This document shows, one piece after another, positions 22,768-36,905 of a stretch of 64,000 nt of DNA. Under the pieces are notes generated by a model that did not search any database, was not told where the DNA came from, and worked only from the letters and a program-made list of their open reading frames with translations. How positions within the stretch are numbered: the stretch's first letter is position 1; each line of letters begins with the position of its first letter. The translations under genes and the position numbers were made by a program. The DNA lies in assembly GCA_001897515.1 (NCBI GenBank), contig MKTA01000018.1, positions 124,001-188,000 of the forward strand, given 5' to 3'. Source of the stretch: Bacteroidetes bacterium 41-46 (GTDB lineage Bacteria; Bacteroidota; Bacteroidia; Bacteroidales; UBA932).

Positions 22768-23910
22768 ATGAGAAAACTTCTCCTATTATCGGCGGTAGCT
22801 ATTATGGCTCTCTCCTGCTCATCTGACAAAGCGACAATCAAGGCAAAAATAGACGGTTTGAATAATGGCCGGGTAGTGCTGAAAGTACTTCGTCTGAACA
22901 CACAGGTTGTAGCAGATACAATTAAAACAGACAATGAAGGTTCATTCGTTTACAAAGCAAAAAATCTGTCTGAGCATCCGGAGTTCTATTATCTGTATTA
23001 CAAGGAGAACAGGATAGCATCTCTTCTTCTGGCTGGTGGTGATAAAATTTACCTTACCACCGATACTCTTGGTTCTGAGATCTCTGTAGAGGGTTCAAAC
23101 GAGAGCTCTTTGCTGAATGAGTTAGAGGGTTATCTAGCAACAAAAGATTCAGAGTTCAGGAATGCGCTTCTTGAGAGGTCGGCTGCGCTCAACAGTAAAA
23201 ACACAGCCCTCGCAGATTCGCTTAACTACAGATTAGGGTCAATGTTTGTAAAATACAAGCAAGACGCAATAAAACATCTCTATTCACACCCAAACTCCTT
23301 AACTAACGTTTATCTTCTCTACCATAAGCTCCCCGGAGATTTGCCCCTATTTGGAGACATGAGAGATATTCTGCTGTACAGACGTGTTTACGACTCCCTT
23401 AGCAACAGTTATCCCGGTTCGGTATATCTGAATCCTCTGCTGGACGAGATCTCCCTTAGGGAGAAAAGTGAAGCTATCTCTTCAAAGCTTCTGGATGCAT
23501 CAGAAGTCGGATTCCCGGACTTAAGACTACCTGATGCAAAATCAAAAATGAGAACCCTTTCAGAGCTTTCAGGAAAGCCATTTATACTTGTGTTTTGGTC
23601 AATAACAGATGTAAATCAGAGACTCTTTAACAGGGATCTGCTAGAGCTTTATGATAAATATTCTGCTGCCGGGCTCCAAATCTATCAGGTCTGTGTGGAT
23701 ACCGATAAGACAGCGTGGGCAAGAGCCGTTGCAGAGCAGGGGCTGCCATGGATCAATGTATGCGACGGATTAGGTTCAGCCTCATCTGCCGTTTCTACAT
23801 ATAATATTGTAGAGGTGCCCTCATTGTTCGTAATAGATAAAAGTGGTACAATAGTAGCAAGAGATGTCTTTGATTCTCAGCTGGAGAAGCTTATAGCAAA
23901 GATTTTTTAG
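22768..23910 (+). CDS. DUF4369 / thioredoxin-fold lipoprotein without CxxC
   Basis: The 380-residue lipoprotein has a lipobox at Cys17 (IMALSC). A DUF4369-type N-terminal domain covers about 22-120 (ATIKAKIDGLNNGRVVLKVL), then a helical linker, then a TlpA/AhpC-like thioredoxin fold from about 245. Where redox-active members have WCxxC, this one has FILVFWSITDVNQRLF, so both active-site cysteines are absent. The conserved cis-Pro loop is present (VEVPSLFVIDKSG). Classical disulfide chemistry is therefore unlikely; a binding or structural role in the periplasm or outer membrane is inferred. Its 3' end overlaps tsaB by 20 bp. Confidence 0.75.
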   Translation: MRKLLLLSAVAIMALSCSSDKATIKAKIDGLNNGRVVLKVLRLNTQVVADTIKTDNEGSFVYKAKNLSEHPEFYYLYYKENRIASLLLAGGDKIYLTTDTLGSEISVEGSNESSLLNELEGYLATKDSEFRNALLERSAALNSKNTALADSLNYRLGSMFVKYKQDAIKHLYSHPNSLTNVYLLYHKLPGDLPLFGDMRDILLYRRVYDSLSNSYPGSVYLNPLLDEISLREKSEAISSKLLDASEVGFPDLRLPDAKSKMRTLSELSGKPFILVFWSITDVNQRLFNRDLLELYDKYSAAGLQIYQVCVDTDKTAWARAVAEQGLPWINVCDGLGSASSAVSTYNIVEVPSLFVIDKSGTIVARDVFDSQLEKLIAKIF

Positions 23911-24598
23911 AGACTCCGGCAATAAAATCCTTTAAATAGAAAGGTTCGAAGTATGCCACATCGGCAAATTCGGACCTTTTATATTTCTCCTCGGCGGGTA
24001 TAAGCATGCCTTTTGCAGATGCCCAACCCTCTATAAATAACGCGTTTGGATGGTTGACAATGGATTTGAACTTCTCTGCCCCATCTCCTGTAAAGATTAC
24101 TCTCCCCTCTGCCAGAAACTCTTTGTAACTCTCCTCAGTTAATATATGAGCCTCAGTTTTAGTCAGCTGCGTGCACTCCTCATCAAAAAGGGCGGTGTAA
24201 ACCTCCATCCTCCTTGCATCTATCATTGGAGCAATTCTGTACGGAGCCTCAATATCCTTGATTTTTTCATGTACCACCCTTGCAATCAGCTCAAGCGAGC
24301 CCACTGCTATTAGAGGCAGATTTGAACCGTAGCAGAGACCCTTTGCAACAGATACCCCAACCCTTAGTCCGGTATATGAACCAGGCCCTTCACTTACAAC
24401 CACTGCGCTGCAATCTTTAAGCAGAATATCCGATTCAAGAAGTACCTCCTCAATAAAACCTGCGATAACCCTCGCATGGGCTTTGTGCTCCTTTATCTCA
24501 CGCTGAGCCGCAATCTCGCCACCGACACTTAGAGCTACAGAACAGACCTCTGTACTTGTTTCAATAAGAAGGAGATTGATACTATTTCTTCTTGCCAT
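23891..24598 (-). CDS. tsaB: tRNA threonylcarbamoyladenosine biosynthesis protein TsaB
   Basis: The 235-residue protein is the scaffold partner of TsaD in the t6A37 tRNA modification. It shows the ASKHA-fold N-terminus LLLIETSTEVCSVAL, the conserved HARVIAGFIEEVL segment and VVVSEGPGSYTGLRVGVSVAKGL. The C-terminal half is more variable, as usual. It overlaps the adaptor gene upstream by 17 bp, so it may be read from the export-system transcript. The 3' end overlaps the convergent lipoprotein gene by 20 bp. Confidence 0.9.
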   Translation of the reverse strand: MARRNSINLLLIETSTEVCSVALSVGGEIAAQREIKEHKAHARVIAGFIEEVLLESDILLKDCSAVVVSEGPGSYTGLRVGVSVAKGLCYGSNLPLIAVGSLELIARVVHEKIKDIEAPYRIAPMIDARRMEVYTALFDEECTQLTKTEAHILTEESYKEFLAEGRVIFTGDGAEKFKSIVNHPNALFIEGWASAKGMLIPAEEKYKRSEFADVAYFEPFYLKDFIAGVSKKSLL

Positions 24599-25811
24599 CC
24601 CATGTCACCTTTGTTCCGGATTTCAGGGTTTTACTTATAGCAGAATATGGTCCGGTTACAATTCTCTCACCCTCATTAAGCCCTGAAAGAATCTCAATAT
24701 TTGTTATGTCCTGGATCCCTGTTTTCACCTCTCTTACCTCAAGTGTGTTATCCTCTTTAACAATAAATACCTGCTCAGCAAGTTCATCCCCCTTCCTGGC
24801 AAGCGTATCGGTAGTCAGATCCTTTCTTGTAGTAATAGTTTGAACAGGAATAGAGATAATGTTATCTCTCCTCTCTGTCTGTATAGAGGCTGTTGCAGAC
24901 ATACCGGGACGAAACGGATTAACACCCTTCTCAACTAAGTCTGAATAGGATTCCGGAAGGATAAGAATTTTAACCTCAAAGTTGGTTACCTGCTCAATAG
25001 CAGAGCCAATATTCTTTGCAGAGTTAGCAATTTGCGTTACCAAACCTGTAAATTTTCTGCCCGGGTACGCATCAACCTCAACCATTGCCGTATCCCTCTC
25101 CTCTATCCTGATAATGTCATTCTCATTTACATCAACAAGCACCTCCATTTGGTGAAAATTGGCTATTCTAAGCATTTCAGTACCTGCCATCTGACTTGTG
25201 CCCACAACCCTTTCACCCTTCTCTACATTCATTTTTGAAATGATTCCATCCATTGGTGCATAAATTGTGGTTTTAACAAGATTCTCCTGAGCCTCCTGCA
25301 GAGCAGCGGTAGCACTTTTTACATTAAACTCAGCAGCCTTAATCTGCTCCTTTGCCACATTATACTGTGACTGTGCGCTCTCATAGTCAGCCTCTGATAT
25401 AGCCTTCTGCTCAAACAAGGTTTTGCTTCTGAGATATGATTGCTCAATCTGCCTGAACTGAGCCAGTTGCTGGGTAAGCTGTGCCTTAACCGAGTTCAGC
25501 GAAGCCTCTGCGCGGTCTCTCATTGAGATATAGACATCCTGCTTAATTTTAATTATAAGTTCTCCTCTCTTAATTTCATCACCCTCCTTGAAGTATAGTT
25601 CAACAATCTCTCCGGATACGTCAGGAGATATCTTAACCTCAACAACAGGCTTGATCTTTCCGTTTGCAGGAATCACCTCTGTTATAGTTCCCTTTGCAAC
25701 AATCTGTGTGGTAACCTCCACGCCCTTATTGCTGTTCTTTCTTCCAAAAACTACAAGCACAACAATCAGTACAACAGCTGCGCCTATTATCCATTTAAAA
25801 CTCTTCTTCAT
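24582..25811 (-). CDS. Periplasmic adaptor (membrane fusion) protein, HlyD/MacA type
   Basis: The 409-residue protein has an N-terminal membrane anchor (WIIGAAVVLIVVLVVFG). Next comes a lipoyl-like half motif (ISPDVSGEIVELYFKEGDEIKRGELIIKI), a long alpha-helical hairpin (about 95-185) and the second lipoyl half (IYAPMDGIISKMNVEKGERVVG). Beta-barrel and membrane-proximal domains follow. It would join an inner-membrane ABC exporter to TolC. The family resembles MacA-type adaptors, which usually partner MacB; no MacB is present here. The nearest ABC exporter is the C39 transporter of the same leftward series. It lies 2 nt after the TolC gene. Confidence 0.85.
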   Translation of the reverse strand: MKKSFKWIIGAAVVLIVVLVVFGRKNSNKGVEVTTQIVAKGTITEVIPANGKIKPVVEVKISPDVSGEIVELYFKEGDEIKRGELIIKIKQDVYISMRDRAEASLNSVKAQLTQQLAQFRQIEQSYLRSKTLFEQKAISEADYESAQSQYNVAKEQIKAAEFNVKSATAALQEAQENLVKTTIYAPMDGIISKMNVEKGERVVGTSQMAGTEMLRIANFHQMEVLVDVNENDIIRIEERDTAMVEVDAYPGRKFTGLVTQIANSAKNIGSAIEQVTNFEVKILILPESYSDLVEKGVNPFRPGMSATASIQTERRDNIISIPVQTITTRKDLTTDTLARKGDELAEQVFIVKEDNTLEVREVKTGIQDITNIEILSGLNEGERIVTGPYSAISKTLKSGTKVTWDGKKK

Positions 25812-25813
25812 CT

Positions 25814-27136
25814 TTATAGTGTTATGGGGTTACCCTTATAGAAATCTATTATTTTTTCCTGAAATATGAACTGATATTTTGCCTGCAAATAGTCAGAGCG
25901 GCTCCTGAAAAGGTTGTTTTTTGCAACGGTGTAGTCAGTTGCGTTCAGAACACCAACATCAAATTTCTGCTGAACATATCTGAAAGACTCCTCCATCGCT
26001 TTAACGTTCCTTTCGGTTGCCTTGTATCTTGCATAATAGGAACCTGCATCACTGACTGCCTGCTGAATCTCTTTATAAAGCATCTGCTCTCTGCTTCTCG
26101 TCTCAATTTCAGAGTTCATTACCCCAAGTTTGGCATTCTTTATAGCAGTGTTTGTTCTCCAAGAATTAAATATTGGGATGTTTATACCAAAAGAGATAGA
26201 GGGGTTTCTGTTTTCGTTGAACTGATCCATAAAACTCTCCTCTCTGCTGTCCGCATAGTAAGATCCATAGCCTGCCCTGAAAGAGAGTGAAGGGTAGGAC
26301 TGCCCCTTTGCAATTGCCAGTTGCAGCTCTGAATTCTTTTTATTAAGCCTTGCAACCTCCATTTGTGGAAGGTCCAAAGATGAATTGAAAAGCTCATCTA
26401 TACTCTCTCCTTTGAATTCTCCAACCCTTAGATTCTCTCCGGGAGATGCTACATCAAAAGAGTTCTCACCAGGAAGATCAAGCAGCTGCTTAAGCATCAA
26501 GAGGGCAGTTGACACCTGATTTTTTGCATTTGTCTGCTGAACAAGTTCGCTTGCATATTGTGCTTCAATTTCAAGAAGAGCACTATATGCCTGGCTTCCG
26601 GCATCCACAAACTTTCTTGTCCTCTCCACCTGCTCTGCAGTACTCTCAAGGCTGGAATTAGCCGAGACAAGAATCTCTCTTGCCAGCAGTACCTGAAGAT
26701 ATGCCCTAGCAATCTCTATTGATATATCATTTTTTATCCTGCCAATCTCCTGCCTGGCAATCTCTCTCATAACCCCCTTGCTTTTGAGTTCATTGTTTTT
26801 AACTAAACCCTCAAATAGCATAACAGAGGCACTGGCAGAGGCGTTTGTGCTCTGGCTGAGTTTATTCTCAATAATCTGAAGGTCGTTCATGTTGACAGAT
26901 CGGCCCCAGTTCATACTGTGTCCTAAAGAGGCATTCAGCGAGGGAAGATAGTTCATCTTCGCCTGGAATAGGTTATTCTCGCTCTGCTCTACAGCAAGCT
27001 CCTGTTGTTTGATTCTTAAGTTGTTGTCCCATGCATATCTTATGCACTCCTCAAGACTCCATAACTTCTGCTGTGCAGAAATCACAGTAGGGATAAAGAT
27101 GAGGATAAAAACGGGGAGTTTCAAAATACTTTTCAT
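25814..27136 (-). CDS. TolC-family outer membrane efflux protein
   Basis: The 440-residue product has a signal peptide (MKSILKLPVFILIFIPTVISAQQ) and two repeated OEP domains. The typical helical repeats include WSLEECIRYAWDNNLRIKQQ, the first-repeat AYLQVLLAREILVSA and the second-repeat YKEIQQAVSDAGSYYARYKATERN...VGVLNATDYTVAKNNL. It forms the trimeric outer-membrane channel for adaptor-linked exporters. The start at 27136 was chosen over an in-frame ATG 33 nt upstream because it begins the signal peptide and lies just after a strong -7 box. It is 68 nt downstream of the second leader-peptide gene. Confidence 0.88.
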   Translation of the reverse strand: MKSILKLPVFILIFIPTVISAQQKLWSLEECIRYAWDNNLRIKQQELAVEQSENNLFQAKMNYLPSLNASLGHSMNWGRSVNMNDLQIIENKLSQSTNASASASVMLFEGLVKNNELKSKGVMREIARQEIGRIKNDISIEIARAYLQVLLAREILVSANSSLESTAEQVERTRKFVDAGSQAYSALLEIEAQYASELVQQTNAKNQVSTALLMLKQLLDLPGENSFDVASPGENLRVGEFKGESIDELFNSSLDLPQMEVARLNKKNSELQLAIAKGQSYPSLSFRAGYGSYYADSREESFMDQFNENRNPSISFGINIPIFNSWRTNTAIKNAKLGVMNSEIETRSREQMLYKEIQQAVSDAGSYYARYKATERNVKAMEESFRYVQQKFDVGVLNATDYTVAKNNLFRSRSDYLQAKYQFIFQEKIIDFYKGNPITL

Positions 27137-27142
27137 AAGATA

Positions 27143-27170
27143 CAAAGGTATAATTATTTTTTTATGCAAA
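27143..27170 (-). promoter_or_regulatory. Internal promoter ahead of the tolC-adaptor pair
   Basis: TACCTTTG (27150-27143) is an exact -7 box and TTTG (27170-27167) is a possible -33 element, but the spacer is 16 bp, shorter than the usual 19-21. The box ends 6 nt before the ATG, so transcripts would be nearly leaderless. It would let export parts be made without the peptides. Confidence 0.45.
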
Positions 27171-27204
27171 CTCCCCGAAGACTCCTTATTTAAGTCATCC
27201 CTGG

Positions 27205-27420
27205 CTATTTATAGATGACCATAGTCCTGCTTTGAGCCTCATACAGATTCTTACTTAGAAAACTCAGCATTCTGACAAACTTTTTTGCACCGTATCCTAT
27301 GCCAAATCCAATACCTCTGACAATCTCCTTATCCCAGGTGCCATCGCCTCCCCTTAAGGATATGCACTCATTCTCATCCAGACGAACAAGGCATAAATCT
27401 CTCTCGTTAAACTTTTCCAT
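27205..27420 (-). CDS. Double-glycine leader peptide B (candidate secreted peptide)
   Basis: A 71-residue product. Residues 1-25 (ending ENECISLRGG) read as a double-glycine leader: Leu at -12, Glu at -8, Leu at -4 and Gly-Gly at -2/-1. The predicted 46-residue mature peptide starts DGTWDKEIVR and contains a glycine-spaced hydrophobic run, GIGFGIGYGAKKF, as in pore-forming class II bacteriocins. A basic, hydrophobic tail follows (VRMLSFLSKNL). The ATG overlaps the stop of peptide A by one base (TAATG). The C39 exporter that would cut such leaders is encoded just upstream. I do not recognise the mature sequence. An in-frame ATG 15 nt upstream exists but lies inside peptide A. Confidence 0.68.
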   Translation of the reverse strand: MEKFNERDLCLVRLDENECISLRGGDGTWDKEIVRGIGFGIGYGAKKFVRMLSFLSKNLYEAQSRTMVIYK

Positions 27421-27608
27421 TATGCCTTCTCCCATCCCTCTTTAAGTCCCTCACTGAAGCTTGGCCAGTACTTCTCTGCCTTCTCAATAAGTTTAATGAG
27501 CTCTTCAATTGCCTCAAGAAGCCTCTTAAGTTTGCCTCCTCCACAGATAAGAAGTTCTCTCTCTTCAAGTGGGGTTACTCCCCACATCTCCAACTCTTTT
27601 CTTTCCAT
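27420..27608 (-). CDS. Double-glycine leader peptide A (candidate secreted peptide)
   Basis: A 62-residue product. The leader (MERKELEMWG VTPLEERELL ICGGG) has the ExxEL-x(3-4)-GG pattern of C39 substrates. Three glycines in a row leave the cut site after residue 24 or 25. The 37-residue remainder begins KLKRLLEAIEELIKLIEKAE, a strongly amphipathic helix with alternating charged and Leu/Ile positions. It continues KYWPSFSEGLKEGWEKA with two Trp. The only Cys is in the leader, so the mature form has no disulfide. It starts 17 nt after the exporter stop and is coupled to peptide B by a one-base overlap. Function is inferred from leader and neighbourhood only. Confidence 0.68.
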   Translation of the reverse strand: MERKELEMWGVTPLEERELLICGGGKLKRLLEAIEELIKLIEKAEKYWPSFSEGLKEGWEKA

Positions 27609-27625
27609 AGTAGTTTATTTTATTA

Positions 27626-29731
27626 TCACCCGCATAACGGCGTGCAGGAATCGCCCGGGGCAAAGCATTGCCCCATTTTGTAAACTCTGTCAGCTATATT
27701 TTTTGTGTTCTCTTTATGCGACACAACAATTACAATCTTTCCCCGGTCTCTCTCAGACTTAATAACCCTATCAGCAAGAAGCTCAGATTCTCGGTCCAGG
27801 TTTGATGTTCCCTCATCAATTATAAGAACAGGTGCATCCCTGTATATGGCTCTGGCAATAGCTACTCTCTGCTGTTGTCCTCCCGACAGCGTTGCCCCTC
27901 CCTCTCCGATATTGCTCTCCACCCCCAATGGAAGACTCTTGATTAGATTAGAGAGTCCCAAATCTCTACATATCAAGGCAATTCTTTTTCTGTCAGGCTC
28001 CTCTATGCCCGGAGCGATGTTTTCCATAAGTGTCCCTGCAAATAGTGAAGGGCATTGGGGAACAACAGCAATGAGCTCTCGCCAGTACTTCAGATTAATA
28101 TTTTCAATATTAACATCGTCAGCGGTTATATGCCCCTCTGTCGGCTTTCTGAGACGTGTAAGCAGAGACACGAGCGTGCTTTTGCCACAACCACTATCTC
28201 CCGTTATGAGCGAAATCTCTCCTCGCCTGAACTCCATCTCAGCCTCTCTGAAGAGGGTTGCCCTTCCCGGGTATGAGAATCCAACTCCGCATAATTTTAA
28301 TGATTGGGGAGTGTTACTGGACAAAACAACTCCCCCTTCAAAAGACTCCGCCTCAAGATCAAGAATTTCAAAGAGACGTGAGGCTGCTACTGTCCCCTCT
28401 CTTATCTCCGGACTGGAGGTTGCAAGTTCGCAAAGAGGTGTTGTGAACAGAGAAATTATTGTGAAAAATGCAACAAGTTCTCCTATGCTTATATTTCCCT
28501 TCATCACCTCAACTCCTCCCATCCATAGGACAAAGACAACCAATAATCTTGATGTAAATTCTGCAGCTGCACCGGAGATGATTGCTCCTCTTGCTCCCCT
28601 CTCGGCACTCTCCAGGAGATGTGAAAGAGCGTCCATGCATTTGCCGGCAAAATAGTTCTCCCCGCCGGAGTATTTAATAGTAAGATATGACTTTACAGTC
28701 TCTATAATTCTGTTTTCAAATGTTGCCCCTCTCTCCATAATTGTCCTCCGCACTCTTTTGTTAAACCTGTCTGCAATTCTGAACTGTATAATGAAGAGGG
28801 GTATTGCAGCCAGAGAGGGTATAGCCATTGCGGGAGATATTGCAAACATAGCGACAAGCGAAAACAGCAGCATAAATACTGAGATAGCTACTGTAGAAAG
28901 AGTTCCGGTTATACAAGACCTTATCTTTGCCGCATCTGATATTCTTGATGTAATCTCACCGGTCTCCCTTGCATCATAGAAGATACCCGGCAATTTAACC
29001 ATATGTATAATATATTTTCCAATCAGTTCTTTGTCTATTTTCAACCCAACCTTAACCAGAATAGTACTTCTGACCCATGTTAATAAAAGCGAGATTGCAA
29101 AAACAAGTGCTATTAGAATAGAGGCTGTTGTCAGGCCGACTCTCTCCCCCGAAGGGATAATCCGGTCCAGAATTATCTTCATAAAGAGAGAGATGGCAAA
29201 AGAGGCCATAGTAAAGAGGAGGGATGTGATAAAGGCCTTTGCCAGTCTCTCTCTGTTTGAAGTAACTAATTTCACCATTCTTGCAACTACAGACTCTCCG
29301 CTCGCTCCCTTTTTAAAGTCTTTTGCCGGTGTGAGTAAAATAACTCTACCGCTCCACTCCTGCAGAAACTCCTCCATCTTGATTGTGTGCATCTCCCCGT
29401 CCAGCGGGTCCATTATATTTACCTTGCCCTCTTTTGCGCCGTAAAGAACAGCATAGTGAAGAAGTCCGCTCCTCTTTTCAAGGTGTACAATAGATGGGTT
29501 GGGAATTTTGTACAAAGAGGCCTCCTGTGCCCTGAACCCCTCTGCATAAAAACCAAAAGCCCTAGCAGCATCAACTATACCTTTGATTGTTGTACCTCTG
29601 CTGTCGGTGTTGCTGAATAGCCTTATTTTGGCAATTGGAAGTCTTAGTCCCCAATATGCAGATACAGATGCAATGCATGCTGCTCCGCAATCGCTTATGT
29701 CGTGTTGTCTTATTTTAACTGAATATCCCAT
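27626..29731 (-). CDS. Peptidase-containing ABC transporter (C39 peptidase-TMD-NBD)
   Basis: The 701-residue protein combines leader cleavage and export. The N-terminal C39 domain (1-125) shows QHDISDCGAACIAS with catalytic Cys15 and oxyanion Gln9, then His92 (LLHYAVLYG) and Asp108 (IMDPLDG), so the triad is intact. An ABC exporter transmembrane domain follows (about 160-450), then an NBD with Walker A GDSGCGKST (near 510), signature LSGGQQQR (near 615), Walker B VLIIDEGTS and H-loop VVSHK. Such proteins remove double-glycine leaders and export the core peptide. Two such peptides are encoded immediately downstream. The start at 29731 places the C39 domain at the very N-terminus; in-frame ATGs up to 84 nt upstream cannot be excluded. 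Confidence 0.9.
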   Translation of the reverse strand: MGYSVKIRQHDISDCGAACIASVSAYWGLRLPIAKIRLFSNTDSRGTTIKGIVDAARAFGFYAEGFRAQEASLYKIPNPSIVHLEKRSGLLHYAVLYGAKEGKVNIMDPLDGEMHTIKMEEFLQEWSGRVILLTPAKDFKKGASGESVVARMVKLVTSNRERLAKAFITSLLFTMASFAISLFMKIILDRIIPSGERVGLTTASILIALVFAISLLLTWVRSTILVKVGLKIDKELIGKYIIHMVKLPGIFYDARETGEITSRISDAAKIRSCITGTLSTVAISVFMLLFSLVAMFAISPAMAIPSLAAIPLFIIQFRIADRFNKRVRRTIMERGATFENRIIETVKSYLTIKYSGGENYFAGKCMDALSHLLESAERGARGAIISGAAAEFTSRLLVVFVLWMGGVEVMKGNISIGELVAFFTIISLFTTPLCELATSSPEIREGTVAASRLFEILDLEAESFEGGVVLSSNTPQSLKLCGVGFSYPGRATLFREAEMEFRRGEISLITGDSGCGKSTLVSLLTRLRKPTEGHITADDVNIENINLKYWRELIAVVPQCPSLFAGTLMENIAPGIEEPDRKRIALICRDLGLSNLIKSLPLGVESNIGEGGATLSGGQQQRVAIARAIYRDAPVLIIDEGTSNLDRESELLADRVIKSERDRGKIVIVVSHKENTKNIADRVYKMGQCFAPGDSCTPLCG

Positions 29732-29812
29732 AAAAAACAGAGGGCGGCATTCTCGCTCACAACTCCCGGCCCCATCAGGAGATTCCATCACCCCTGCCGC
29801 CACTCTGCAATG

Positions 29813-29820
29813 CAAATATG
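29813..29820 (-). promoter_or_regulatory. Possible -7 box ahead of the exporter gene
   Basis: CATATTTG on the minus strand matches TAnnTTTG at 7 of 8 fixed or allowed positions and lies 81 nt before the chosen exporter start. It is the best promoter candidate in the cvpA-exporter gap. Confidence 0.25.
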
Positions 29821-29883
29821 GAGAGGGTAATCAAGTAGATTATGCTCAATGGTAAAAAGATGGATGAATTTATCCCGAGTGTA

Positions 29884-29912
29884 GAATTTTCTGAATGTTA
29901 AAGAGAAAATTC
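29884..29912 (-). terminator. AT-rich hairpin after cvpA
   Basis: Nine-bp perfect arms (GAATTTTCT / AGAAAATTC) with an 11-nt loop lie 6 nt past the cvpA stop. There is no clear U-tract, so it may be only a weak terminator or an RNA end-stabilising hairpin. It separates cvpA from the export locus. Confidence 0.3.
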
Positions 29913-29917
29913 AGAAA

Positions 29918-30418
29918 TCAGAGGTGCGATACTAGATTTTTAAGGTATGGAAAAATTGCGGGAGCTATTTTTGAAAGATATCCGTATAAAACAGAGTTAT
30001 CAAGAGTCTCTCTTGGCAAAAATTCAAGAATTTCATCAAGCGATTCCAGAAGATAGACTATGATGCTGAAGACAAAGGCGTATTTCACAAGAGCAAAAAT
30101 AACTCCTGCCAGTTTGTCCAGCCATCCCAGGAGAACCATCTTGACAATCCCCTCAGCCGCTCTTCCTGCAAGATTCACAAGTATCAGAACTACTATGAAA
30201 ATTGCAGCGAAAGAGATAATGTTAAGTATATTCTGATCAGTATCTATCCAGGAGATAAGTTTGCTGCTTACAAAATCTGAGAAGTGGTATCCGGCCCAAA
30301 CCCCCAGTATAAGAGCAAGAACAGCAGCTACCTGACGAACTAAACCCTTCATAAAACCGGCGAAAAGGGCAGGAATCAGGCAAACAAGTATTATTATATC
30401 CGCTGCATTTAATGACAT
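29918..30418 (-). CDS. CvpA-family membrane protein
   Basis: The 166-residue protein has four hydrophobic segments (about 5-25, 28-48, 62-85, 100-125). The family-typical N-terminus is ADIIILVCLIPALFAGFMKGLVRQVAAVLALILGVWAGY. CvpA proteins are inner-membrane proteins linked to colicin V export and envelope stress in E. coli, but their biochemical role is not settled. Its position next to a peptide exporter is suggestive, yet CvpA is a widespread housekeeping gene and the two are separated by a hairpin. An ATG 9 nt upstream is an alternative start. It is divergent from ileS. Confidence 0.82.
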   Translation of the reverse strand: MSLNAADIIILVCLIPALFAGFMKGLVRQVAAVLALILGVWAGYHFSDFVSSKLISWIDTDQNILNIISFAAIFIVVLILVNLAGRAAEGIVKMVLLGWLDKLAGVIFALVKYAFVFSIIVYLLESLDEILEFLPRETLDNSVLYGYLSKIAPAIFPYLKNLVSHL

Positions 30419-36820: not shown

Positions 36821-36905
36821 GGAGAGGTGGCAGAGTGGTCGATTGCGGCGGTCTTGAAAACCGTTGAACTGAGAGGTTCCGGGGGTTCGAATCCCTCCCT
36901 CTCCG
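36821..36905 (+). tRNA. tRNA-Ser (anticodon UGA)
   Basis: An 85-nt class II tRNA. The 7-bp acceptor stem pairs GGAGAGG with CCTCTCC, the anticodon loop CTTGAAA carries TGA between CGGT/ACCG arms, and there is a long variable arm. The T-arm shows GGGGGTTCGAATCCC. CCA is not encoded after discriminator G. It reads UCA and related Ser codons. Confidence 0.93.

Follow-up and report, generated by a model that had tools for sequence, protein, structure and literature searches.

The peptides of class IIb bacteriocins are encoded by adjacent genes and carry leaders that end in a double glycine (GG), and pheromones, too, can have GG leaders and leave through C39 exporters. Two-peptide bacteriocins are described as Gram-positive products whose two peptides are required in equimolar amounts, together with a dedicated immunity protein (PMC6957408), and plnJ and plnK are reported to be co-transcribed with the immunity genes plnLR (PMC4985602). 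Among the Bacteroidetes, the class IIa-like bacteroidetocins are described as having a GG leader, a double-glycine peptidase exporter and no obvious immunity gene, each being a single peptide that has two or more cysteines and whose locus includes a gene for a transmembrane protein and mostly also one for a thiol oxidoreductase (PMC6671954). A full export set of exporter, adaptor and outer-membrane channel has already been described in BGC4, a Bacteroidales RiPP cluster, and the same source gives the colicin V (microcin V) system CvaAB-TolC as a peptidase exporter, adaptor and TolC that export one small antibacterial peptide (PMC10352776). Cdz of Caulobacter is described as a contact-dependent bacteriocin made of two adjoining small proteins (PMC5380434).

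Locus organization and the C39 exporter

In the window, by which we mean the whole 64,000-nucleotide stretch of DNA analysed, five genes run on the minus strand in the order exporter (27626–29731, 701 residues), P1 (27420–27608, 62 residues), P2 (27205–27420, 71 residues), a TolC-family outer-membrane channel (25814–27136, 440 residues counted from the ATG at 27136, which we took as the start, the ORF list beginning at TTG 27169) and a MacA/RND-type periplasmic adaptor (24582–25811, 409 residues), all with the order, strand and coordinates given in a first-pass annotation of this sequence. The exporter and P1 are 17 bases apart, P1 shares 1 base with P2 (its stop and the P2 start lie within TAATG), and gaps of 68 and 2 bases precede and follow the TolC gene. 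Missing from that annotation were tsaB (23891–24598, minus strand; tRNA threonylcarbamoyladenosine factor), an old neighbour that belongs to the same run and has 17 bases in common with the adaptor gene; cvpA (29918–30415; Colicin_V production protein family), which lies upstream of the exporter on the same strand; and a conserved RNA element (27629–27674, minus strand) just upstream of P1. A structured leader before the exporter (29725–29920) was considered and rejected, its fold z being -1.15, and a scan for sigma-70-type promoters and terminators gave a result near shuffled expectation.

Pfam searches matched the exporter to Peptidase_C39 (99.8 bits), ABC_membrane (138.2 bits) and ABC_tran (101.6 bits), and its Walker A, LSGGQ, DE and H-loop motifs were all intact. 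Intact, too, as previously annotated, were the catalytic residues Cys15, His92 and Asp108; Cys15 was invariant in all 45 aligned sequences covering that position, and His92 and Asp108 in all 47, the window copy among them. Judged by its peptidase domain fused to an ABC exporter and by these motifs, the protein is a C39 peptidase-containing ABC exporter (PCAT). Since it scored under the cut-off of NCBIfam model TIGR01193 (389.5 bits against 523.85), we assigned no subfamily. The last exporter codons overlap the RNA element.

Two conserved GG-leader peptides

P1 and P2 do each begin with a leader ending in GG, as had been annotated: LLICGG in P1 (leader codons 27537–27608, mature part 38 residues) and SLRGG in P2 (leader codons 27346–27420, mature part 46 residues). 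All 21 aligned P1 and all 21 aligned P2 sequences have GG ahead of the mature part (one P2 row was off by one residue, yet reads AGG), figures to be read with the G[GAS] filter under which the peptide ORFs were listed, so that distant members were partly selected by the GG feature itself. When syntenic loci were selected by the exporter and nothing else, all 31 encoded both peptides; six of these loci are in other genera, with both peptides at L057, L058, L060 and L063, and P2 at L053, picked by eye from the ORFs and then entered in the profiles; a second set of 20 loci, chosen by a match to P1 or P2, was excluded from this count. The first-pass annotation had named homologous loci without the peptides, or without a conserved GG, as what would tell against its proposal, and none appeared among the 31. 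This retention of both peptides with the exporter strongly supports the suggestion that P1 and P2 are its cargo, which on this comparative evidence they very probably are. Three related exporters (G030, G033 and G037) had no peptides, and no matching neighbourhood either.

Profile searches of 60 genomes recovered a single P1 and a single P2 in 31, both at the locus, which argues that the pair is not a chance one; genome G045 gave a weak match to P1 only (E-value 3.4e-4). When 299 genomes of the family were searched, P1 was found in 145 and P2 in 152, and the two adjoined in all 131 genomes with places listed for both (the P2 matches of G122 and G223, listed by genome and not by place, are omitted). 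Within the genus the pair was single-copy at the same site in 25 of 25 genomes, a universal presence unlike that of most bacteriocin loci. The stop/start overlap was found in all 25 genus genomes and in 31 of 50 pairs overall, leaving out L138, where a single ORF matched both profiles. For P1 and P2 alike dN was well below dS; purifying selection acts on both. Structure models of low to moderate confidence predicted a helix at residues 25–61 of P1 (mean pLDDT 64) and 28–70 of P2 (mean pLDDT 74).

Similarity to class IIb two-peptide bacteriocins

Both mature peptides contain a GxxxG motif, at G54–G58 in P1 and G38–G42 in P2. The motif occurred in the mature part of 49 of 50 P1 sequences (shuffle mean 10.0) and 44 of 49 P2 sequences (shuffle mean 14.6; L131, with a wrongly set P2 start, left out), and in 46 of 47 and 41 of 46, respectively, when identical mature parts were counted once. 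In a comparison with class IIb peptides that was picked post hoc, once a resemblance had been noticed, and that used bacteriocin sequences verified against PDB entries, none of 1942 protein windows and none of 500 shuffles attained the local alignment score of PlnJ with P1; for PlnK with P2 the numbers were 0 of 1912 windows and 0 of 500 shuffles, and for LcnG-alpha with P2 0 of 1887 windows and 1 of 500 shuffles. Each of the four swapped pairings had a score equalled by 28 to 521 windows. LcnG-beta matched P1 weakly (equalled by 14 of 1902 windows and 95 of 500 shuffles), PlnE and PlnF had no clear match to P1 or P2, and several wrong pairings with P2 fell in the upper few percent (LcnG-beta, 28 of 1902 windows; PlnJ, 38 of 1942; PlnE, 34 of 1910). 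Earlier alignments had given LcnG-alpha with P2 a score equalled by 0 of 1000 shuffles and 0 of 2423 real-protein windows, and LcnG-beta with P1 one equalled by 193 of 1000 and 20 of 2423. By these scores the apparent resemblance of P1 to plantaricin J, and of P2 to both plantaricin K and lactococcin G-alpha, is greater than that of any control window. The likeness exceeds the controls, yet Pfam and PDB profiles give no match: searches of Pfam and NCBIfam with P1 and P2 returned no credible match, and PDB searches weak matches only (best E-values 0.17, 0.047 and 0.21). The NCBIfam SdpC toxin family was considered for P2 and rejected as a weak match (E-value 0.043, 13.7 bits against 99.2).

The locus thus has two different peptides encoded by adjacent genes and GxxxG in both mature peptides, as class IIb bacteriocins do, and no dedicated immunity gene in the gaps of the 21 genus loci; we therefore call it class IIb-like and not a member of class IIb. 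The two gaps of these 21 loci held ten ORFs of at least 28 residues, none in more than two genomes, in agreement with the remark already made that no immunity gene was obvious. We rejected cvpA as a dedicated immunity gene and treat it as context, since it is found in relatives without the exporter. A class IIb-like two-peptide pair is a reading that the first-pass annotation did not contain, and the sequence features suggest it with better support than the signalling role that was raised there.

A conserved RNA element upstream of P1

The RNA element folds as a hairpin (27657–27674), which contains a palindrome, followed by an H-type pseudoknot in which 27652–27655 pairs with 27639–27642 (stem 1) and 27643–27648 with 27629–27634 (stem 2); its end lies 20 nt upstream of the start codon of P1. 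The pseudoknot was found upstream of P1 in 46 of 48 distinct sequences (50 less two duplicates) against 101 of 960 shuffles; MAFFT fails to align stem 2, so this stem was counted by a script that takes the best fit for each sequence, favours pairing and may shift the register. When stem 2 strands were swapped as a control, the own strand fitted best in 37 of 46. In fixed alignment columns the paired cells and covariation score exceeded all 500 shuffles, and the number of further pair types was not above them (equalled by 401 and 213 of 500). A first unconstrained scan of 50 sequences gave other folds in a few, and the pseudoknot was absent in four (L040, L056, L057 and L143). A strict descriptor matched 21 times at the target and 5 times elsewhere in 1.31 Mb, with 14 matches in reversed sequence. 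Scanning with model R1, which was built mostly from loci later recovered with it and scored 150 first-look candidates in most genomes, found a single strong copy in each of the 25 genomes. Rfam gave no match over the gathering score and two at chance level (E-values 2.6 and 4.7). The element may control peptide output.

The TolC and adaptor genes

The channel matched PF02321 with 172.9 bits. Of the label HlyD/MacA-type given earlier to the adaptor, the MacA/RND part held (TIGR01730, RND_mfp, 180.5 bits, above the cut-off of 94.9) and the HlyD part did not, the score against the HlyD-type T1SS model TIGR01843 being 60.2 bits, under the cut-off of 208.65. The accompanying proposal, in which the exporter works with this adaptor/TolC pair, is plausible. 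In the first set, 30 of 31 loci have TolC and the adaptor after the peptides, and a contig end truncates the other one; in the second set 16 of 20 have them, 2 lack them and 2 are truncated. In L058, L060 and L063, where cvpA and ileS are elsewhere, the exporter, peptides, TolC and adaptor are still found with tsaB. Set against this is a rather unlikely alternative, in which TolC and the adaptor serve another transporter, of the MacB type, and are adjacent only through the position of the exporter module in front of an old tolC-adaptor-tsaB run: that trio occurs with neither exporter nor peptides in 6 of 20 loci around tsaB (L076, L079, L081, L088, L090 and L091), L131 and L133 have the exporter and peptides but no TolC or adaptor between P2 and tsaB, MacB-type permeases were found in 13 of 13 genomes searched, and the adaptor is of the RND/MacA type while a second C39 exporter in the genome is followed by an adaptor that matches HlyD best (84.1 bits against the cut-off of 208.65). 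One of the six loci with the trio alone is from the same family. Gene order makes it likely that the exporter uses the adaptor/TolC pair.

Proposed role and alternatives

We propose that the locus is, with somewhat better than even probability, an operon for the export of two peptides that form a class IIb-bacteriocin-like pair, and its features make it quite likely that P1 and P2 act as a pair. The pseudoknot would set translation of P1 and translational coupling would hold P2 near equimolar with it; the C39 domain would cleave after GG, and the mature helices would leave through the adjoining adaptor and TolC. Once outside, these helices, both amphipathic, could pair through GxxxG and hit a membrane target of related bacteria. 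That killing other cells is the main role we judge, from the sequence, to have an even chance.

The main alternative is that the pair serves the producer's own population, because it is in all the genus genomes examined and under purifying selection. Here the peptides would be a conserved physiological agent acting on that population or its envelope, for example in controlled lysis, adhesion or membrane remodelling. The single copy at one site in 25 of 25 genus genomes, the selection on both peptides and the lack of any further ORF conserved across the gaps of 21 loci fit such an agent, and a precedent is offered by the gonococcal Nap peptides, described as bacteriocin-like, with undetectable antimicrobial activity, and as promoting autolysis (PMC11798529). 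It is nevertheless doubtful, as P1 and P2 resemble the killing peptides plantaricin J/K and roughly half of the family genomes sampled had no match, so that the pair is dispensable at family level. Less probable still is a pheromone pair for cell-cell communication, which the GG leaders, C39 exporter and lack of an immunity gene would suit: the signalling role found no support, since no sensor or receptor gene, neither histidine kinase nor peptide-responsive regulator, was seen in the conserved block, and overlapping genes and GxxxG helices better suit a two-peptide membrane agent. A Cdz-like surface toxin, whose peptides aggregate on the producer surface for contact killing, shares two adjoining small exported peptides, type I-like export and glycine motifs with this locus; we consider it very improbable, because GxxxG is short here and there is no immunity gene, whereas Cdz has extended GxxxGxxxG zippers and CdzI, and because many Cdz-like loci are described as apparently horizontally acquired, while the present one is syntenic throughout.

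Returning to the class IIb-like pair, we tentatively suggest that an immunity-free, plantaricin JK-like pair is a conserved trait of this lineage in an outer-membrane host, its output set by a private, non-Rfam pseudoknot RNA that possibly senses a ligand or the state of exporter translation. If so, class IIb bacteriocins, known from Gram-positive bacteria, would be tied to a Gram-negative tripartite exporter whose adaptor is of the MacA type. More generally, the proposed operon, if real, would extend two-peptide bacteriocin architecture to the outer-membrane envelope type, and it raises the question of why all the genomes examined in a genus keep a bacteriocin-like pair under purifying selection with no adjoining immunity gene. 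Whether C39 exporters can work with MacA-type adaptors is a further question that it prompts, and the new RNA element, with clear covariation and one target operon, has a function that should be easy to test.

Comparison with known systems

Like P1 and P2, plantaricin JK of Lactobacillus plantarum and lactococcin G have helical mature parts with GxxxG in both peptides; unlike them, the present locus is in an outer-membrane host with a TolC channel, and is syntenic and chromosomal, with a pseudoknot upstream and no adjoining immunity gene. The compact H-type pseudoknot is a form shared with the preQ1, SAM/SAH and guanidine-III riboswitches as these are described, whereas our element has no Rfam match and one strong copy per genome, at the P1 locus. 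Bacteroidetocins have in common with this locus the GG leader, peptidase-domain exporter and lack of an obvious immunity gene; here, however, there are two peptides, with a mature-part cysteine in 3 of 50 P1 and 10 of 49 P2, and neither the cysteine-bearing class IIa-like peptide nor the accompanying genes for a transmembrane protein and, mostly, an oxidoreductase were found. Bacteroidales RiPP clusters encode modification enzymes, and the present block encodes none. Cdz is likewise a Gram-negative, two-component system with glycine motifs; it uses type I secretion and, as described, has CdzI immunity, long glycine zippers and a TolC homologue outside the cluster. Colicin V is similar in export, with a peptidase-bearing exporter, adaptor and TolC as here, its adaptor being of the HlyD family; that system exports one peptide and has TolC encoded elsewhere, whereas in the present locus TolC adjoins and the adaptor is of the MacA/RND type.

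Gene block and its conservation

On the minus strand, from 29731 down to 24582, the window carries in order the genes for a C39 peptidase-ABC exporter (27626-29731), two double-glycine peptides that we call P1 (62 residues) and P2 (71 residues), a TolC-family protein and a periplasmic adaptor (24582-25811). The cvpA gene lies upstream of the exporter on the same strand, and tsaB continues the run, overlapping the adaptor gene by 17 bases; the adaptor scored above the cut-off as RND/MacA type and far under it as HlyD type. The catalytic residues named in the first-pass annotation were correct, Cys15 being invariant in all 45 aligned exporters that cover that position and His92 and Asp108 in all 47 aligned. 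The exporter signature motif (residues 615-619) departs from LSGGQ in close to half of the aligned exporters, with R at 617 in 22 of 50 and E at 619 in 23 of 50.

Using the exporter as query against 60 genomes, we took 40 stretches for locus comparison. A strong match lay in a syntenic block beside ileS, cvpA or tsaB in 31 genomes, and both peptides were present at all 31 of these loci (25/25 genomes of the source genus and six from other genera), which bears out the association of exporter and peptides in the first-pass annotation; the gene arrangement described there holds, and is wider than was first thought. The block was divided between contigs in two genomes of the genus (G003 and G008), and for the most divergent members position, size and GG served to identify the peptides among the ORFs. 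Three genomes (G030, G033 and G037) had exporters of similar similarity without the peptides, in a different neighbourhood, and weaker exporters without them, also outside the neighbourhood, were found in G031, G024 and G048, as a second exporter in G030 and as one in the source genome (G000). One ORF in G048 gave a weak P2 profile match, on a short contig (L069) with a more distant C39 exporter. In G099 two GG-type small ORFs, diverged from P1 and P2, lie between exporter and TolC genes (L138:4263-5379).

In a sample of 299 genomes of the source family, P1 was found in 145 (12 of 25 genera) and P2 in 152 (11 of 25 genera), and in all 131 genomes with places listed for both the two lay within 400 bases on one contig. 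The pair is therefore a trait of about half of the family's sampled genomes, held at one site. Each genome of the genus had a single match to each peptide; a weak second P1 match occurred in three other family genomes and a second P2 match in one. A phylum-wide search of 395 genomes, which covered P1, returned two matches, the source genome and one marginal (E = 9.8e-4).

Features of the peptide pair

The GG divides leader from mature part in all 21 aligned P1 and all 21 aligned P2 sequences, and the P1 stop overlaps the P2 start in 25/25 genomes of the genus; counting all pairs, 31 of 50 show this overlap. GxxxG motifs are present in 49 of 50 P1 mature parts (shuffle mean 10.0) and 44 of 49 P2 mature parts (shuffle mean 14.6), and AlphaFold predicted a single long helix after the GG in both P1 (mean pLDDT 64) and P2 (mean pLDDT 74). 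Among eleven locus pairs compared for dN/dS, one of them without peptide differences, dN was far under dS for both peptides, e.g., P1 0.013/0.31 and P2 0.015/0.28 in L059-L065, and P1 0.028/0.25 and P2 0.030/0.32 in L045-L046. The P2 leader changed faster than the mature part in 9 of 10 pairs, at least two-fold in six. Exporter dN exceeded TolC dN in 9 of 10 informative pairs (exception L036-L037); in L059-L065 exporter dN was 0.111, with TolC at 0.024, the adaptor at 0.022 and ileS at 0.030.

Profile searches found no family for P1 or P2. We compared six known peptides with the P1 and P2 sets, with windows of real proteins and shuffles as controls; lactococcin G and plantaricin JK, their sequences verified in PDB, were chosen after a resemblance had already been noticed. 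No window (0 of 1942) or shuffle (0 of 500) attained the score of plantaricin J against P1, and none (0 of 1912 windows, 0 of 500 shuffles) attained that of plantaricin K against P2. Since these scores lie beyond all controls, each peptide appears by sequence to resemble the corresponding half of plantaricin JK, in a comparison that is post hoc. Lactococcin G-alpha against P2 was matched by 0 of 1887 windows and 1 of 500 shuffles, and lactococcin G-beta against P1 was weaker (14 of 1902 windows, 95 of 500 shuffles). Between 28 and 521 windows attained the scores of the four swapped pairings, and between 34 and 1496 attained those of plantaricins E and F; certain mismatched P2 pairings therefore rank in the upper two percent.

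RNA element upstream of P1

Ahead of P1 on the minus strand (27629-27674) lies a hairpin followed by a compact H-type pseudoknot, a pattern that recurred when the sequence ahead of P1 was compared in 50 loci, with the pseudoknot ending 17 to 27 nt ahead of the start codon. It fits 46 of 48 distinct upstream sequences (misfits L058 and L143) vs 101 of 960 shuffled ones. By best-fit counts, compensating changes occur at all ten pairs, and in 37 of 46 sequences the downstream partner is matched best by the stem 2 strand of that same sequence. On fixed columns, 5 of 8 pairs of the hairpin and stem 1 are altered on both sides within the genus, as are 3 of 4 stem 1 pairs across all 48 sequences; the covariation score was above 500 of 500 shuffles for both sets, and the number of pair types was not above all 500. 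By a covariance model of hairpin and stem 1, each of the 25 genomes of the genus contained a single strong copy, with E values between 1.1e-24 and 8.4e-13; every copy lay upstream of P1, and all remaining hits scored no better than E = 2.0e-4. The element had no above-chance match in Rfam; the sole Rfam match within the window is a tRNA gene (36821-36905).

In the window the exporter frame passes through the element, with its stop directly after. Of the 48 sequences, 24 have the exporter stop over 66 nt ahead of the P1 start and the other 24 have it nearer, so ribosomes ending the exporter could touch the element in about half. We infer that the RNA may control translation of the peptides. In many loci from other genera (L053, L063, L128, L129, L131, L132, L134, L135, L139, L140 and L141) the hairpin forms a perfect 12- to 16-base palindrome, which could also act as a binding site for a protein on DNA or as a loop through which the RNA dimerises.

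Export path

TolC and adaptor genes follow the peptides in 30 of the 31 loci picked via the exporter and in 16 of 20 picked for a P1 or P2 match; three exceptions are cut by contig ends and two lack the genes. The block stays intact in L058, L060 and L063, though cvpA and ileS are located elsewhere. In L131 and L133, from part of one genus, the exporter, P1 and P2 adjoin tsaB and TolC and adaptor are missing. The best remaining adaptor homologue in G061, which has such a locus, is 29% identical, and MacB-type permeases, possible alternative partners, were present in 13 of 13 genomes searched. Around tsaB, 6 of 20 loci (one from the same family) had the tolC-adaptor-tsaB trio without exporter or peptides, 12 had tsaB without TolC and adaptor, one had TolC alone and one was cut. 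The exporter therefore likely uses the adjacent adaptor and TolC, as the first-pass annotation proposed, though this pair is not needed everywhere. The source genome has a second C39 exporter (L072:8268-11761, contig G000:C2), after which comes a 439-residue adaptor, HlyD-like though under the family cut-off.

Comparison with known systems

No description of the system was found among the open-access literature matches listed for bacteriocin, double-glycine and C39 topics in Bacteroidales or Gram-negative bacteria, or among the best 12 of 327 matches on pseudoknot RNA in Bacteroidales. The two peptides of plantaricin JK act jointly at equimolar dose, as amphiphilic helices in contact via GxxxG, and their genes are co-transcribed with immunity genes (PMC4985602), whereas the present pair has none beside it. 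That no immunity gene was obvious had been noted before; in 21 loci of the genus, the gaps that separate cvpA from the exporter and P2 from TolC had no conserved immunity ORF, the ten ORFs of at least 28 residues each occurring in at most two genomes. Because an immunity gene is a defining feature of class IIb, we term the pair class IIb-like. Bacteroidetocin loci are alike in having no obvious immunity gene, and their producers are self-inhibiting (PMC6671954), so the absence of such a gene is compatible with killing. The system is a variation on a known kind: a two-peptide pair of class IIb-like character with a C39 exporter, retained at one site by a lineage, with no immunity gene beside the pair and an RNA pseudoknot outside Rfam ahead of it.
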